Assembly: GCF_900106075.1 (NCBI RefSeq)
Contig: NZ_LT629794.1
Location: 1,406,001-1,470,000, forward strand
Reading direction: 5' to 3'
From: Polaribacter sp. Hel1_33_78
GTDB lineage: Bacteria; Bacteroidota; Bacteroidia; Flavobacteriales; Flavobacteriaceae
Length of the DNA: 64,000 bases
In this document: positions 20,131-61,186 of the stretch, piece by piece
Layout of the letters: each line of letters begins with the position of its first letter
Position numbering within the stretch: the stretch's first letter is position 1
Notes under the pieces: model-generated
The model's input: only the letters and a program-made list of their open reading frames with translations
What the model was told of the DNA's origin: nothing
The model's database searches: none
Program-made: the position numbers and the translations under genes

Positions 20131-20784
20131 ATGAAATTTTTCATAGATACTGCAAATTTAGAGCAAATTAAAGAAGCACAAGCTTTAGGGATTTTAGATG
20201 GTGTAACCACAAATCCGTCTTTAATGGCCAAGGAAGGAATTACTGGAGAAGCAAACATTATTAACCATTACAAAGAAATCTGTGAATTGGTAGAGGGTGA
20301 TGTTTCTGCGGAAGTAATTTCTACAGATTTTGATGGAATGGTAAAAGAAGGAGAGGCTTTAGCTGCATTAAATCCGCAAATTGTTGTGAAATTACCAATG
20401 ATAAAAGATGGTGTAAAAGCATGTAAATATTTTTCTTCTAAAGGAATTAAAACGAACGTAACTTTAGTTTTTTCTGCTGGGCAAGCTTTATTGGCAGCGA
20501 AAGCAGGAGCAACTTATGTTTCTCCATTTATTGGACGTTTAGATGATATTTCTACAGATGGTTTAAACTTAATTGCAGAAATTCGTTTAATTTATGATAA
20601 TTATGGCTTTGAAACTCAAATTTTGGCAGCTTCTGTGCGTCATACAATGCATATTATTGATTGCGCTAAATTAGGTTCGGATGTAATGACAGGGCCTTTA
20701 AGTGCAATTGAAGGGTTGTTAAGACACCCTTTAACAGATAGTGGGTTGGCTAAGTTTTTAGCAGATTATCAAAAAGGAAATTAA
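20131..20784 (+). CDS. fsa: Fructose-6-phosphate aldolase / short transaldolase
   Basis: A class I aldolase of the TalC/FSA subfamily, 217 aa. Family hallmarks are MKFFIDTANLEQIKEA at the start, GVTTNPSLMAKEG (residues 24-36), the Schiff-base lysine in IVVKLPM near residue 86, and AGATYVSPFIGRLDDI. The short form lacks the extra regions of classical TalB transaldolase. It may act as transaldolase in the pentose phosphate pathway or split fructose-6-phosphate; sequence alone does not decide. It is followed by a hairpin terminator, so it is likely monocistronic. Confidence 0.93.
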   Translation: MKFFIDTANLEQIKEAQALGILDGVTTNPSLMAKEGITGEANIINHYKEICELVEGDVSAEVISTDFDGMVKEGEALAALNPQIVVKLPMIKDGVKACKYFSSKGIKTNVTLVFSAGQALLAAKAGATYVSPFIGRLDDISTDGLNLIAEIRLIYDNYGFETQILAASVRHTMHIIDCAKLGSDVMTGPLSAIEGLLRHPLTDSGLAKFLADYQKGN

Positions 20785-53894: not shown

Positions 53895-54347
53895 TTAATT
53901 TCCTTTTTTATGTCTATATCTATTCAGTAATTTTCTTCCAAACTCCATTTCAGCAAGTTCTAGCTGAATTATTTTTTTATAGGAAAGAATCTTTTTTATT
54001 TTAGTTATAAAATTTTCATGAAGTTCATAGATTTTCTTTTCAGTAGTCAATTTTAATGAAATTAGTCTTTCTGCATCATTTTCAGAAACGGCATTTATAT
54101 TCTCATTTTCTTTGATAGCCTTTTTTATTTCTGACCGAAGTTTAAATTTTAATTCATGCTTCTTTTTATCATGAATATTGTAAACGGGCCAAAATTTTTG
54201 AGCTTCATCAGGAGTTAATTTTAACCGGTCTGTTAAATATGAAATTTTAAGCATCTTAATTTTATCTCTACTTCCTTTTCTAATTTGGGCAGAAAGAGAA
54301 AGAATACAAAAAAGGCTAATACATATAAAAGTGATTATATTTTTCAT
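53895..54347 (-). CDS. Periplasmic helical protein, Spy/CpxP-like
   Basis: A 150-aa protein with a signal peptide (IITFICISLFCILSLSA). The mature part is highly charged and helical, with LTDRLKLTPDEAQKFWPVYN resembling the LTxxQ-type segments of CpxP/Spy family chaperones and metal sensors. It is third in an operon after an ECF sigma factor and an anti-sigma-like membrane protein, the layout of envelope-stress systems. A role as stress sensor or chaperone is inference. Confidence 0.78.
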   Translation of the reverse strand: MKNIITFICISLFCILSLSAQIRKGSRDKIKMLKISYLTDRLKLTPDEAQKFWPVYNIHDKKKHELKFKLRSEIKKAIKENENINAVSENDAERLISLKLTTEKKIYELHENFITKIKKILSYKKIIQLELAEMEFGRKLLNRYRHKKGN

Positions 54348-54374
54348 AAGCTATGTTTTTAATCTGAATAATGT

Positions 54375-54917
54375 TTAATTAATTTCATTTAATAAATCTT
54401 TATAATCAATGGAATTATTTAAGTAATCTTCAATAGTTTCATCTTTAATTGTTAAAAAGTAAAAATCATTTTCGTCTAAAAGATCATCTTCTAAAACTAA
54501 AGCAACCTCGCTGGTAGTGATAGTGTTAGAATCAAGCCAAAATTCAAAATCATCATTAGAAAGAGAATCTAAAGTAAGTGCTTTGTTTGTTTTAAAAACA
54601 AAAGAATTCAATCCAATAAATAAAATAATTGATGCTGCTGCTGCTATTGAACTAATTCTTAAAATTCGTTCTTTAAAAGAAATAACTTTTGTTTCTTTTT
54701 TTTCAGGTGAAACACTGGCTAAAATGGTATCTTCTAAATTATTGAAATAAGTTGCGGGTACCTCAAAATTATGTTCTTTTGAAAAGTTTTTTTCTAATAA
54801 TTTTATAGCAATAGTTTCTTCTAAATTATTGAAATAGTCTGAAGGAACGGAGAATCCAGTTTTCTTTCCGTTTTTTTTAAGGATATATTCAACACTATTT
54901 TTAATTTCTTTACTCAT
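54375..54917 (-). CDS. Putative anti-sigma factor membrane protein
   Basis: A 180-aa protein with one membrane segment near residues 88-107 (ISSIAAAASIILFIGLNSF). The cytoplasmic N-terminus has two similar units, FSVPSDYFNNLEETI (about 22-36) and FEVPATYFNNLEDTI (about 51-65). The C-terminus is very acidic and probably periplasmic. Position directly after the sigma gene, topology and size point to an anti-sigma factor, although there is no ZAS zinc motif. I know no characterised homologue. Confidence 0.75.
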   Translation of the reverse strand: MSKEIKNSVEYILKKNGKKTGFSVPSDYFNNLEETIAIKLLEKNFSKEHNFEVPATYFNNLEDTILASVSPEKKETKVISFKERILRISSIAAAASIILFIGLNSFVFKTNKALTLDSLSNDDFEFWLDSNTITTSEVALVLEDDLLDENDFYFLTIKDETIEDYLNNSIDYKDLLNEIN

Positions 54918-54948
54918 TGTTATTTAGACCTTTAATTTAAAAAAAGGT

Positions 54949-55497
54949 TTAATTAGCTCTTGTTTGTATATATTTTTCAATTTTTTTTACTGCATGGAAG
55001 TAAGAGGCTTTTAAGGCCCCAACAGAAGTTTCTAAAATTTCTGATATTTCAGTATATTTTAATTCATCAAAATATTTCATATTGAAAACTAACTTTTGTT
55101 TTTCAGGCAAAGTTGCTATCGCTTTTTGTAGAATAAGTTGAATTTCATCACCAGTAAAAAGGTTATCATTCGTTAAAGTAGAGACTAATTCTTGTTGATA
55201 ATCAGAAATATCTTCTTTACGTTCTTTTGCTCTTTTATTGATAAAAGTAATAGATTCGTTCGTTGCAATTCTGTATATCCAAGAATACAATTTACTTTGT
55301 TGGTTAAAAGTATCAATATTTCTGAAAATCTTAATAAAAGTGTTTTGTAAAACATCATCAGCGTCATCATGAGAAATCACAATTTTACGGATATGCCAAT
55401 AAAGGCGTTTTTTGTAGAGGTAAATTAATTCTCTGAACGCTTTTTCTTTAGTTTTAACATTTTTTAATTCCGCTATTAAAAGAGTTTCTTTTGTCAA
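54949..55497 (-). CDS. ECF-type RNA polymerase sigma factor
   Basis: A 182-aa sigma-70 family factor. Region 2 is visible as YKKRLYWHIRKIVISHDDADDVLQNTFIKIFRN-like sequence (DDADDVLQ near residue 40) with YSWIYRIATNESITFI, and region 4 as LPEKQKLVFNMKYFDELKYTEISEIL near residue 130 followed by VGALKASYFHAVKKI. The start codon is TTG at 55497. It heads the operon with the anti-sigma-like and Spy-like genes, so it likely controls an envelope response and its own operon. Confidence 0.93.
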   Translation of the reverse strand: MTKETLLIAELKNVKTKEKAFRELIYLYKKRLYWHIRKIVISHDDADDVLQNTFIKIFRNIDTFNQQSKLYSWIYRIATNESITFINKRAKERKEDISDYQQELVSTLTNDNLFTGDEIQLILQKAIATLPEKQKLVFNMKYFDELKYTEISEILETSVGALKASYFHAVKKIEKYIQTRAN

Positions 55498-57072: not shown

Positions 57073-57855
57073 ATGGAAAATGATAAAAAACTCTTAAAGA
57101 TAACTTTTTTAGGAACTGGAACATCACAAGGAATTCCAATGATAGCCAGTAATCATCCTGTTTGTTTGTCAGAAGATCCAAAAGATACTCGTTTGCGTTC
57201 TTCAATTTTAATTTCTTGGGATAAATTTTCTTATGTAATTGATTGTGGCCCAGATTTTAGGCAACAAATGTTACGTGAAAAAATACAATTAATTCATGGT
57301 GTATTTTTTACTCATGAACATGCAGACCATACGGCAGGCTTGGATGATTTGCGTCCTTTTTGTTATAAAATAGGAGATATGCCTATTTATTTAGATGAAA
57401 GAACATTGGAAAGTCTAGAGTTGCGTTTCCAATATATTTTTAGCAAAGAAAACAGATACCCAGGAGCCCCAAGTGTAACCTCTAATATAGTTGCGAATGC
57501 GCCTTTTTTTGTTGACGATTTAAAGATAACACCAATTGAGGTAATGCATGGTACTTTGCCTGTAACCGCCTACAGGTTTTTAGATTTTGCATACTTAACA
57601 GATATGAAATCAATAACAAAACAGGAAAAGGAAAAATTAAAAAATTTAGATGTTTTAGTGATAAATGCTCTAAGAATCGAGGAACATCCAACGCATCTTA
57701 ATTTACAAGAAGCTTTCGAATTTATTAATGAAATTCAACCGAAAAGGACATATTTTACGCACATCAGTCATAAGCTAGGTTTTCATTCTGAGGTTTCCAA
57801 GAATTTACCGAAAAATGTTTTTTTGGCTTATGATGGCTTAAAAATTAGTGTATAG
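57073..57855 (+). CDS. Metallo-beta-lactamase-fold phosphodiesterase, PhnP-like
   Basis: A 260-aa MBL-fold hydrolase. It begins KITFLGTGTSQGIPMI, typical of RNase Z/PhnP relatives. The metal site is FFTHEHADHTAGLDDLRPF near residues 80-97, with further ligands in GPDFRQQ, VMHGTLPV and THISHKLGFH. PhnP cleaves cyclic phosphoribosyl phosphates in phosphonate breakdown, but no phn genes are near, so a general phosphodiesterase role is more likely. The Cys-containing loop HPVCLSEDPKDTRLR resembles PhnP zinc sites. Confidence 0.9.
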   Translation: MENDKKLLKITFLGTGTSQGIPMIASNHPVCLSEDPKDTRLRSSILISWDKFSYVIDCGPDFRQQMLREKIQLIHGVFFTHEHADHTAGLDDLRPFCYKIGDMPIYLDERTLESLELRFQYIFSKENRYPGAPSVTSNIVANAPFFVDDLKITPIEVMHGTLPVTAYRFLDFAYLTDMKSITKQEKEKLKNLDVLVINALRIEEHPTHLNLQEAFEFINEIQPKRTYFTHISHKLGFHSEVSKNLPKNVFLAYDGLKISV

Positions 57856-57961: not shown

Positions 57962-58327
57962 ATGGAAAAAAATATTGAACAAGTCAACGGGGTAGAAGTT
58001 AAGAAAGAACAACAGCAAAAAGTTGATAATAGAATTGCAGCAGTTAGAGATCTTATATTCGGTGAAAACATTCAACAATATGATACTGAGTTTGCAGATG
58101 TTTACGACAAGTTAAAAGCACTAGAGGATAAAGCTAATAAGAATTTAGCAGCATCAGTAACCATTCTTGAAAATAAATTAGCAGATTTTGAAAGCTTAGT
58201 GGATCATAAATTTCAGGATTTGAATGATGATTTAGACAAAAAAATCGCAGATTTAGAGGATGAAAAAGCGGACAGAAGAAAATTAGGACGAGCTCTAGGG
58301 AAAATCGCACAGATGCTTCAAGAATAG
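57962..58327 (+). CDS. Coiled-coil protein, first gene of the small-GTPase operon
   Basis: A 121-aa charged, fully helical protein. Residues 40-115 have heptad-like spacing (YDKLKALEDKANKNLAA, ILENKLADFESLVDH, DLDKKIADLEDEKADRR), so a coiled coil or tetrameric bundle is likely. The block IAAVRDLIFGENIQQYDTEF resembles the LKELLLADDR block of the next protein. No signal peptide. Its stop codon is followed immediately by the next ATG, so the pair is tightly coupled. Function unknown; a scaffold for the GTPase or kinase is inference. Confidence 0.82.
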   Translation: MEKNIEQVNGVEVKKEQQQKVDNRIAAVRDLIFGENIQQYDTEFADVYDKLKALEDKANKNLAASVTILENKLADFESLVDHKFQDLNDDLDKKIADLEDEKADRRKLGRALGKIAQMLQE

Positions 58328-59137
58328 ATGAAAAAAACGACTATAGATAATATAGACAATCGTTTTGAGTTGCTTAAGGAACTTCTTCTAGCTGATGATA
58401 GAAAAGACTTTAATGTTTTAAAAGAAGAATTTGTTGAACGTGAAAAGTTTAGAGTCAAAGTAGATCCTGTAATTGATGAAAAAATAGAAGATTTAAAAGA
58501 AAATTTTCCTGAATATTTTGGAGAAACTATTACAGAAACTATTAAAGTTCAAATTAAAGAATCTCAAGATGAAGTTGTAGAGGCGTTGTATCCGATTAGG
58601 GGTAAATTGGTCAAGAAATTTATTATTGCAGAGATTGCAAAACTTTCGGAAAGTATAAACGATACAATTAATAATAAGTTTTCGGTTAAACAAATTATAA
58701 AACGCCTATTCAAGGGGAATACAACCGATGCAGAAGATGTTTTGCAACAGGTTTTTGAACCAATTATAGAAGAAGTTTTTATTATTGAAAAAGATTCTGG
58801 TCTGCTCGTAGGAAACTATTCTAGAGGAAACATAGCAGATAAAGATATGGTTTCTGGCATGCTTACAGCCATTAAATCTTTTGTTGAAGATGCCTTTTCT
58901 AAAGAAGGACAAGATTTAGAGGATATTAAATTTGAAACCTTTCAATTATCCATTCAAAACTTTAAATCAATCTATATAGCTACTGCAACATCAGGAGTTA
59001 TAAATAATGAGTTTAAAAATGAGTTATTGGATACTATTAATAATTTTGCTGAAATTATTTTACGAGACAGAAGTTATCTGTCCAATGAAGAGAAACTTAA
59101 TAAAATAATCAAAAAAACATTTATCAAATCACTATGA
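58328..59137 (+). CDS. Helical protein with a longin/roadblock-like C-terminal domain
   Basis: A 269-aa cytosolic protein. Residues 8-130 are helical and charged (NIDNRFELLKELLLADDRK, VVEALYPIRGKLVKKFI). Residues 148-245 look like a compact alpha/beta domain: EEVFIIEKDSGLLVGNYS, DKDMVSGMLTAIKSFVEDAF, FQLSIQNFKSIYIATATSGV, EFKNELLDTINNF. Strand order and the SGMLTAIKSF helix resemble longin/roadblock modules that bind small GTPases. As I recall, related flavobacterial proteins have the same front half plus a C-terminal OmpA domain, absent here. A GTPase regulator or effector is the best guess. Confidence 0.75.
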   Translation: MKKTTIDNIDNRFELLKELLLADDRKDFNVLKEEFVEREKFRVKVDPVIDEKIEDLKENFPEYFGETITETIKVQIKESQDEVVEALYPIRGKLVKKFIIAEIAKLSESINDTINNKFSVKQIIKRLFKGNTTDAEDVLQQVFEPIIEEVFIIEKDSGLLVGNYSRGNIADKDMVSGMLTAIKSFVEDAFSKEGQDLEDIKFETFQLSIQNFKSIYIATATSGVINNEFKNELLDTINNFAEIILRDRSYLSNEEKLNKIIKKTFIKSL

Positions 59138-59156
59138 TTTGATACGTCTTCTATAA

Positions 59157-59642
59157 ATGATTGCAAAAAAAGTATTGTTGGTTGGTAATTTTGGAGTTGG
59201 AAAAACTTCATTAATTAGAAGATACGTGCTCAACGAATTTTCTGAGGATTATATTAGTACAATTGGTGCTCGCGTTAGTACCAAAATTGTAAAAGTTAAC
59301 AATCAAGAAATCAAGTTTTTAATTTGGGATGTTGCTGGGGTAAATGATAATGATATAATACCAAAAGCCTATTTTTTAGGCTCAAGCGCGGCTATGTATG
59401 TCTTTGATTTATCTCGATTAGAAACCTATAGTAATATAAAGAATCAAGTAGAAACTGTAAAACAACTTTCTGGCTTGAAAAACATAACAGTTGTTGGAAA
59501 TAAAAAAGATTTGTTAGCATCTGGGGAAATTGAAAAGATAAAAAAAACAATTTCAATTTCTATAGATTTAATTACAAGTGCAAAAGATGATGAAAACGTA
59601 GAAGATGCATTTATAAAACTTGCAGAACAATCCCTAAATTAA
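59157..59642 (+). CDS. Rab/Ras-like small GTPase
   Basis: A 161-aa single-domain GTPase of the Ras superfamily. G1 is GNFGVGKT (residues 10-17), the switch I Thr is Thr35 in DYISTIGARV, G3 is WDVAG (57-61), G4 is NKKD (115-118) and G5 is TSAK (140-143). The residue after G3, Gln in Ras and Rab, is Val62, predicting slow intrinsic hydrolysis or use of a partner residue. No C-terminal Cys for lipidation. It is third in an operon with a coiled-coil protein, a longin-like protein and a hybrid kinase. Confidence 0.93.
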   Translation: MIAKKVLLVGNFGVGKTSLIRRYVLNEFSEDYISTIGARVSTKIVKVNNQEIKFLIWDVAGVNDNDIIPKAYFLGSSAAMYVFDLSRLETYSNIKNQVETVKQLSGLKNITVVGNKKDLLASGEIEKIKKTISISIDLITSAKDDENVEDAFIKLAEQSLN

Positions 59643-59647
59643 ATAAT

Positions 59648-61186
59648 TTGATATCCTCAAAAATTGATTTTTTTTTTATCGAACTGACAGTAGATTCTAA
59701 AGGAGTTGTTCGTGCTTTAGTTGCAGGAAAGTTTGCACATTCAGAGTTTGTATTAAATCAATCTATATTTACAGCTTGCCCTTTTTTAGAGGGCACATTA
59801 GAAGGACTTGTAATTGATGAGCCATGCGTAATGGAAGGAATGGTAATCGTTTCTAATGGGGAAGAGTATAATGTGGATGTAGAGCTTTTTAATTTAGGTA
59901 GTGAGGTTTCTATTTTGATACATGATAGAACGAATGTATACAAATATGTAGAAAAACTTAATCAAAATAGAAACGATCTTTTTTTCTTAAAAAGACAACT
60001 TAATGAAAAAAATATTGAGCTAGAAAGATTAAGGAAAATTTCCGATCAAGCAAATGAAGAAAAATCACGTTTTTTAGCCATGATGAGTCATGAAATTAAA
60101 AATCCTTTAAACGTAATTCTTGGTTATACAGAGTTAGTAAATAAAGAAAACATCTCTAAAACGGTAAAAAAATATTTAAAGTATTTAACGATCTCTGGGA
60201 AAAACTTAAAAGTTATAGTGGATGATATTTTGGATTTATCAAGATTTGAAGCTGGTAAATTACAATTAAGTAAATCAGCCGTTAATTTAAATCATGTTGT
60301 AAATCAACTTATTAATGATTACGAGTATAGTCATGGAGATATAGATGTTAAATTGTTTTTTTTATGTTCTCCAAAGCTACCAAAATTTGTGATTGGAGAT
60401 GATGTTAGGATATATCAAATTCTAACAAATTTAATTAACAACTCCATAAAATTCACTCAAAAAGGTTCTATTTCATTAAATGTAGATTTAACTTCTTTAG
60501 ATGAAAATGATGTGATAATTTCCTTCAAAGTAACTGATACAGGAAGAGGAATGTCTGAAAAACAAATAACGACGGTTTTTGAAGAATATCAGTAAAATGA
60601 ATTAGATGATAATCGAATTCATAAAGGAGTAGGTTTAGGATTAGCAATAGTAAAACGTTTGGTTTCTGCAATGAATGGAACCATTAGGGTAACTAGTAAA
60701 ATTAATGTAGGAACAACTTTTTACATAGATATTCCTTTTCATATTGATGCATCGGTTATTGTTGAAGAGAATTCTAACGAACAGATTGTTGAAAATAATT
60801 ATCTAAAAAACAGTAAAATTTTAGTTGCTGATGATAATTTTTTAAATAGAGAGATTGTAACTCATATCTTAACAAAATAGAAAGCTAATTTTACGATAGT
60901 GAAAGATGGGTTAGAAGCACTTAATTTAATGCAAAAAGAAACTTTTGATATGGTTCTTTTAGATATTAACATGCCAAATCTCTCTGGAGAAAGTTTGATG
61001 AGACAGAAAGAAGCATATAGAAAATCGAATTTAGAAACACCTATTTTAGCGCTAACAGCAAACCATACTGAAGAAGAAGTAGAAGGTTATTTAAAAATAG
61101 GATTCATAGATGTGATTCCTAAACCATTTACCAGTAAACAATTTGTCCAGATGTTGAATAAAAATCTTAAAGTCAAGTTTGGGTAA
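59648..61186 (+). pseudogene. Hybrid sensor histidine kinase/response regulator with two in-frame stops
   Basis: One continuous frame of 512 sense and internal stop codons encodes a hybrid kinase, interrupted by TAA at 60593-60595 and TAG at 60878-60880. Order: PAS-like sensor (residues 1-100), coiled linker, HisKA with MMSHEIKNPLN (phospho-His148), N box ILTNLINNS and G1 box DTGRGM; first stop; G2 box GVGLGLAIVKRL; receiver with acidic pair VADDN; second stop; phospho-acceptor in LLDINMPN and switch Lys in IPKPF. All three pieces are in the same frame with no indel. Either change could come from Gln (CAA to TAA, CAG to TAG). The first stop cuts the ATPase domain, so kinase activity should be lost unless the stops are read through. 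Start appears to be TTG at 59648. Confidence 0.85.

Follow-up and report, generated by a model that had tools for sequence, protein, structure and literature searches.

A Group 1 Rup-type operon of Polaribacter sp. Hel1_33_78 combining a Rab-like GTPase gene, a candidate longin-type partner and an interrupted hybrid histidine kinase frame

The Rup family of small GTPases was proposed as the prokaryotic source of the eukaryotic Ras-superfamily GTPases, and none of its members had been characterised experimentally in 2014, according to the accessible part of the survey by Wuichet and Søgaard-Andersen (PMC4316618). There, Group 1 of the family was predicted computationally as a set of GTPases without the Gln of the G3 motif, with three kinds of neighbour encoded beside them: a coiled-coil protein; one whose conserved domain, of unknown function, often precedes a transmembrane (TM) segment and an OmpA domain; and an output protein whose N-terminal part has an invariant Gln and which is typically a histidine kinase or a cyclic di-GMP (c-di-GMP) enzyme. 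Supply of Gln in trans was suggested for these GTPases, and members from Bacteroidetes were listed. The operon described here lies at positions 57962-61186, on the plus strand, of a stretch of 64,000 nucleotides from Polaribacter sp. Hel1_33_78 (contig NZ_LT629794.1; below, the window), whose genome of 3.2 Mb forms a single contig and has Polaribacter as its closest named relatives. By its gene make-up and motifs the operon is a Group 1 Rup member, and on balance it is probably a short, soluble one, working through a longin platform and a Gln on the helix leaving a PAS domain, with a kinase that is broken in this strain.

Open reading frames (ORFs) and Pfam matches give the order coiled-coil gene, gene for a second protein (P2), GTPase gene and hybrid kinase frame, with intergenic gaps of 0, 19 and 5 bases.

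57962-58327, plus strand: coiled-coil protein, 121 amino acids (aa), from its ORF, with an R-D-L-I-F-G motif near the N-terminus
58328-59137, plus strand: P2, 269 aa, from its ORF and model, with N-terminal helices, a C-terminal module of predicted longin fold and no TM segment
59157-59642, plus strand: Rup-type Ras-superfamily GTPase, 161 aa (Pfam Ras, E 7.5e-33)
59325-59342, plus strand: G3 motif W-D-V-A-G-V of the GTPase, with Asp present and Val at the position of Ras Gln61, from motif counts
59648-61186, plus strand: hybrid histidine kinase frame, starting with TTG at 59648 and containing two in-frame stops
60593-60595, plus strand: first in-frame stop, TAA, codon 316, within the ATPase domain
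60878-60880, plus strand: second in-frame stop, TAG, codon 411, within the receiver domain

The coiled-coil label was judged by eye and from helix-rich weak Pfam matches, without a coiled-coil program. With Group 1 Rup the operon shares a GTPase without the G3 Gln, a coiled-coil protein, a conserved-domain protein and an output with an invariant N-terminal Gln; it differs in three respects: P2 is short, without the TM segment and OmpA domain; the P2 module is modelled as longin; and stops interrupt the kinase frame. From the architecture we infer that the P2 module corresponds to the conserved unknown domain of the 2014 survey, and we take the PAS-helix Gln to be the survey's invariant N-terminal Gln. 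The accessible part of that survey names neither the NtrC-type nor the class III cyclase outputs found here in relatives, nor a longin fold for the Rup neighbour (PMC4316618). Among the literature matches listed, which leave subscription papers and preprints mostly uncovered, such a fold was not found for this neighbour and no further paper on a Rup system was recognised.

The arrangement is not peculiar to this strain. A genome scan returned 126 relatives, the best 80 of which were kept as related loci. Under a strict distance rule for gene order, all four genes stand in the same order in 75 of these 80, which is far beyond chance. The GTPase is present in 80/80 and the kinase in 79/80, while a coiled-coil homologue stands upstream of P2 in 76, or in 78 when two frames that overlap are counted as well (L094 and L102, missed by the order rule, where the coiled-coil frame is present and overlaps the open frame of P2). 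At the threshold of the strict survey no coiled-coil match was obtained in L087 and L090 and no kinase match in L113. Nearly all of these loci belong to Bacteroidota, to judge by record titles, and related sets occur in Nostoc and Mesorhizobium. Presence is patchy, with 14/36 genomes of the genus, 16/59 relatives in all and 15/392 genomes in a sample of the phylum. A more distant set of 14 long-form loci, made up of two plasmids and twelve stretches from the phylum sample, has the coiled-coil gene adjoining P2 in 13 and a GTPase in 11, in divergent orientation in 4 of those 11. The preliminary description of this DNA had reported four tightly packed genes in this order and named a lack of conservation of the order outside this strain as a refutation; the genes are borne out, and the order is conserved in the related loci, with related sets in Nostoc and Mesorhizobium. 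It took the kinase for a single open frame and overlooked both stops. Its belief that the system was undescribed has to be given up, since the Group 1 Rup set, with Bacteroidetes members and histidine kinase outputs, was published in 2014; the coupling of two-component signalling to a small GTPase is likewise not new, being known from actinobacterial conservons (accessible part of PMC4316618).

The GTPase consists of a single domain and carries, in the window copy, eukaryote-like G1-G5 motifs of the Rab/Ras type. Motifs were counted over 84 GTPases, namely the window copy and those of the 80 loci, three of which have two: the G3 Asp is present in 84/84, Gln stands at the Ras-61 position in 6/84, and the P-loop is absent in 1/84. 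The top relative of solved structure is Rab14 (8.8e-25), and the best 60 of 871 solved relatives are of the Rab type. The genome has six matches to the Ras profile, of which none but the present GTPase falls in a frame of single-domain size, and the roadblock profile Robl_LC7 has no match anywhere in the genome at E<=1. Tandem GTPase genes were seen between P2 and the kinase in 3/80 loci (L069, L076, L092); one copy of L076 lacks the P-loop, so that a pseudo-GTPase partner is possible there.

The fold of P2 was approached through an AlphaFold2 model compared with known structures, and its C-terminal part is placed as follows.

58763-59134, plus strand: module of predicted longin fold, P2 residues 146-269, bb-a-bbb-a-a (AlphaFold2; Foldseek and VIA-align against longin structures)
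58841-58900, plus strand: putative longin helix alpha-1, P2 residues 172-191, the best conserved segment

The modelled module agrees with the longin pattern of bb-a-bbb with two C-terminal helices, and alpha-1 has a mean conservation of 3.74 bits, against 1.87-3.20 in the other 12 segments. Foldseek matched the P2 model to p14/MP1 (1e-3) and to an Asgard roadblock protein (3e-3). The 50 VIA-align rows listed are chains that we take to be of longin fold, from SNAREs, coat subunits, TRAPP, Mon1-Ccz1, CPLANE, Lst4 and the signal recognition particle (SRP) receptor, and longin is therefore preferred over roadblock, the modelled fold being of the longin/roadblock type and nearer to longin. Roadblock, tried as the fold of P2, is less favoured on account of these longin-fold rows, and kinship to it may nevertheless exist; a PAS fold was set aside because no PAS chain is among the 50 rows listed by either program, which is not proof. 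The kinship of longin and roadblock is treated in PMC3521125, Asgard proteins of both kinds are treated in PMC10933270, and "Longin/Roadblock" is entered jointly as bacterial in PMC4917890, as far as these sources are accessible. A longin- or roadblock-like partner had been postulated at residues 148-245 of P2; the models support the fold and shift its boundaries, whereas profile searches of the window's P2 give neither a longin match (Pfam, E<=1) nor a match to Robl_LC7 at E<=1, weak longin matches being confined to a few relatives. Robl_LC7 is likewise not among 25 of 87 families listed for 41 P2 members. A sequence search of the PDB with P2 yielded 0 matches at E<=10, NCBIfam gave nothing meaningful for P2 or the coiled-coil protein, and Pfam likewise brought no useful result for the window's P2, in which OmpA has no match.

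Profile searches recover P2 in both short forms (80) and long forms (14). The short relatives have open frames of 268-299 aa, and hydropathy indicates a TM segment in none of the 80, nor in the window's P2; among the long proteins of the phylum sample, 12/12 carry one C-terminal to the module, and an OmpA match was found in 5/5 scanned, one of them just under the cut-off. The label "cell envelope biogenesis protein OmpA" that databases attach to short P2 proteins probably stems from the OmpA domain of the long forms. On the Mesorhizobium sp. WSM1497 plasmid (L120), P2 shows by eye four repeated segments after the TM segment.

The remaining features belong to the output protein, in which the Gln of interest precedes the kinase domains.

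59675-59926, plus strand: PAS domain at the N-terminus of the kinase, residues 10-93 (mean confidence of the model, pLDDT, 89; Foldseek/VIA-align)
59963-59965, plus strand: Gln106, invariant, on the helix that follows the PAS domain (Gln in 80/80 kinases and 10/10 distant outputs)
60062-60256, plus strand: HisKA domain with phospho-acceptor His148 (Pfam 5.2e-18; His in 80/80)
60899-61186, plus strand: remaining receiver domain, 3' of both stops (Pfam Response_reg 5.8e-17)

In the model of residues 3-132 (mean pLDDT 89) a long helix extends from a PAS domain, and almost all Foldseek and VIA-align rows for this model are PAS domains. Both Gln106 and Asn109 of the helix are identical in 80/80 kinases (79 loci and the window). 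In the distant loci scanned, which did not include L122, different proteins follow the GTPase: a histidine kinase in L123, L125, L126, L130 and L132, a hybrid kinase with Hpt in L119 (Nostoc), a sigma-54 activator of the NtrC type in L121 and L124, and a class III nucleotide cyclase in L120 (Mesorhizobium). The residue aligned with Gln106 is Gln in 10/10 alignable distant outputs, a count that omits L129, whose output frame is unsettled, and L127, L128 and L131, which show no GTPase in the stretch read. Tandem kinases after the GTPase were observed in 7/80 loci (L089, L101, L102, L107, L108, L110, L117).

In the window the kinase is interrupted. Upstream of the first stop its frame encodes the PAS domain, the HisKA domain and part of the ATPase domain, and a complete HisKA-HATPase-receiver frame is absent in this strain's kinase. 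Since it is cut before the ATP-binding domain is complete, the branch is probably dead unless read-through or a truncated product matters, and the kinase arm is probably inactive in this strain. A codon-usage scan of the window listed three stops in coding context, the two in the kinase and one at 20268 on the minus strand, which sits opposite an open frame of 217 aa. The 28 loci nearest to the window (L039-L066) have a full-length kinase in 25 cases; of the other three, one is truncated at the edge of its contig and two are abnormal at the C-terminus. A protein of 512 aa in the database, which belongs to a cluster of 40 sequences and may come from a near-identical strain, is identical to the kinase frame except for the start residue and the two stops, and the damage is therefore very recent or an artefact of culture or sequencing.

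The mechanism proposed for the operon, including every contact in it, is derived from fold, operon pairing and conservation. P2, through its longin module and together with the coiled-coil protein, would form a platform holding the GTPase, and by analogy with the longin pairs of Rabs this platform probably loads the GTPase with GTP, acting as a guanine nucleotide exchange factor (GEF). In the long form the platform would be tethered through the TM segment to a peptidoglycan-binding OmpA domain, so that the system would take its input from the state of the cell envelope; for the short form represented here a cytosolic input is possible. The GTP-bound GTPase would then dock on the PAS-helix of the output protein, here a predicted soluble hybrid histidine kinase, and alter its activity, and the invariant Gln would supply the residue missing from the GTPase and thereby end the signal. 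Extended to Group 1 Rup as a whole, these would be bacterial longin-Rab modules with a longin exchange platform, in which the PAS-helix Gln on exchangeable outputs (histidine kinases, NtrC-type activators, cyclases, c-di-GMP enzymes) serves as the effector contact and also as a catalytic finger acting in trans; this generalisation is tentative and falls somewhat short of an even chance. The eukaryotic longin regulators of Rabs (Mon1-Ccz1, TRAPP, CPLANE Fuzzy/Inturned) likewise place a longin fold in partners of Rab-type GTPases, and the modelled module matches them well in structure; the present case differs in being bacterial, with one longin module per P2 and an operon shared with signal-output proteins. 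An exchange activity of P2 like theirs is predicted at most, by fold.

Several observations weigh against this mechanism. The P2 model has a mean pLDDT of only 65, with 62-64 at residues 171-200 and below 50 over a large part of 79-133; roadblock chains (Ragulator, dynein LC7, Rag C-domains) account for many of the 50 rows that Foldseek lists, so that the split between longin and roadblock rests on VIA-align; and the weak longin matches among P2 relatives are few (Fuz_longin_1 4/41, Intu_longin_1 2/41, two rows listed lying below the cut-off), unrelated families such as DUF445 (13/41) matching as many members or more. Longin domains also occur in SNAREs and coats without exchange activity, and a shared fold is not a shared function. 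The long-form loci L127, L128 and L131, all of one genus, have P2 and the coiled-coil gene and no recognisable GTPase in the stretch read, and an envelope input is not directly applicable to the present operon because its short form has no TM segment. On the output side, the PAS-helix profile reaches only 2/10 distant outputs at E<=0.01 (Nostoc and Mesorhizobium, E about 1e-5), and in the remaining 8/10 the Gln rests on the multiple alignment; the negative control, an unrelated PAS kinase of the same genome with Asn at this position, is the sole one. Finally, P2 residue 91 (58598-58600) is Arg, whereas the 40 other rows of the alignment show I, M, L or V there, and together with the broken kinase this suggests that the present copy may be decaying.

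Decay is the substance of one alternative, in which the operon is a relic here, its kinase a pseudogene and its other three genes persisting by recency. This is compatible with the longin and PAS-helix mechanism and appreciably less than an even bet; the two in-frame stops, which are the window's only listed cases on a sense strand, the Arg91 at an otherwise hydrophobic position and the patchy presence in the genus all speak for it, as does the ratio of nonsynonymous to synonymous substitution (dN/dS) of the kinase, which is slightly higher in the window pairs (0.17, 0.21) than in the L039-L041 pair (0.145). The other three frames, however, are intact and have low dN/dS (0.08-0.17) in the window pairs with L039 and L041, and a kinase that deviates from the database protein solely at start and stops points to very recent damage or to an artefact. 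Another alternative keeps the system and changes the roles, with P2 as a GTPase-activating protein (GAP) or plain scaffold and the Gln serving signalling through the helix, not GTP hydrolysis. The helix between a PAS domain and its output domain is a usual site of signal-relay residues, and in the model the Gln sits on the helix leaving the PAS domain toward the output; the roadblock protein MglB, of related fold, is moreover a GAP (and GEF) for MglA, as far as the accessible literature goes. This alternative is nonetheless unlikely, as the Gln is kept across unrelated outputs (histidine kinase, NtrC-type, cyclase) that have the N-terminal part and a neighbouring GTPase in common, and the control kinase, a single case, has Asn there.

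An operon of the MglA/MglB or conservon (CvnA-D) type was also considered, since a small GTPase goes together with a roadblock protein in both systems, and with a histidine kinase as well in conservons (accessible part of PMC4316618). Myxococcus MglA/MglB resembles the present operon in joining a small GTPase to a partner of the same structural superfamily and in its ties to two-component proteins, and differs in that MglB is roadblock, not longin, and that the MglA gene is not near its response-regulator partners; conservons have an MglA-family GTPase, an MglB-type roadblock protein and CvnA, a membrane kinase whose C-terminus bears an LPxR motif, and no PAS-helix Gln is mentioned for them in the accessible part of the survey (PMC4316618). 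In MglA, Thr78 replaces a highly conserved residue, according to the part of PMC3000849 that is accessible. The GTPases counted here are uniform in their G3 Asp. Thr78 occupies that very position, so that the MglA-family Thr is absent from this set. With the best 60 of 871 solved relatives of the Rab type, no Robl_LC7 match in the genome at E<=1 and 0/121 Rup sequences coupled to MglB in the survey's table (PMC4316618, accessible part), this reading is extremely improbable, and the Group 1 Rup reading with longin platform and PAS-helix Gln is retained.

Two groups of genes lie outside the operon. A gene of metallo-beta-lactamase fold, assigned by eye with no profile run, stands upstream at 57073-57855 and is kept upstream in 25/28 of the loci L039-L066, probably as plain synteny. 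Further away, at 53895-55497 on the minus strand, a sigma-factor-like gene followed by two small genes resembles by eye an extracytoplasmic function (ECF) sigma operon.

In conclusion, the constant neighbour of Rup GTPases was a domain of unknown function in 2014 (accessible part of PMC4316618), and a longin fold would hint at its mechanism. If the neighbour is a longin domain, the pairing of longin and GTPase exists in bacterial operons, where it is accessible to simple genetics; should it also act as exchange platform for its Rab-like GTPase, bacteria would have a longin-Rab partnership that is not tied to membrane traffic. Outputs swapped behind a constant, Gln-bearing N-terminal part would offer a clear test of the supply of Gln in trans, which the accessible part of the 2014 survey only suggested (PMC4316618).

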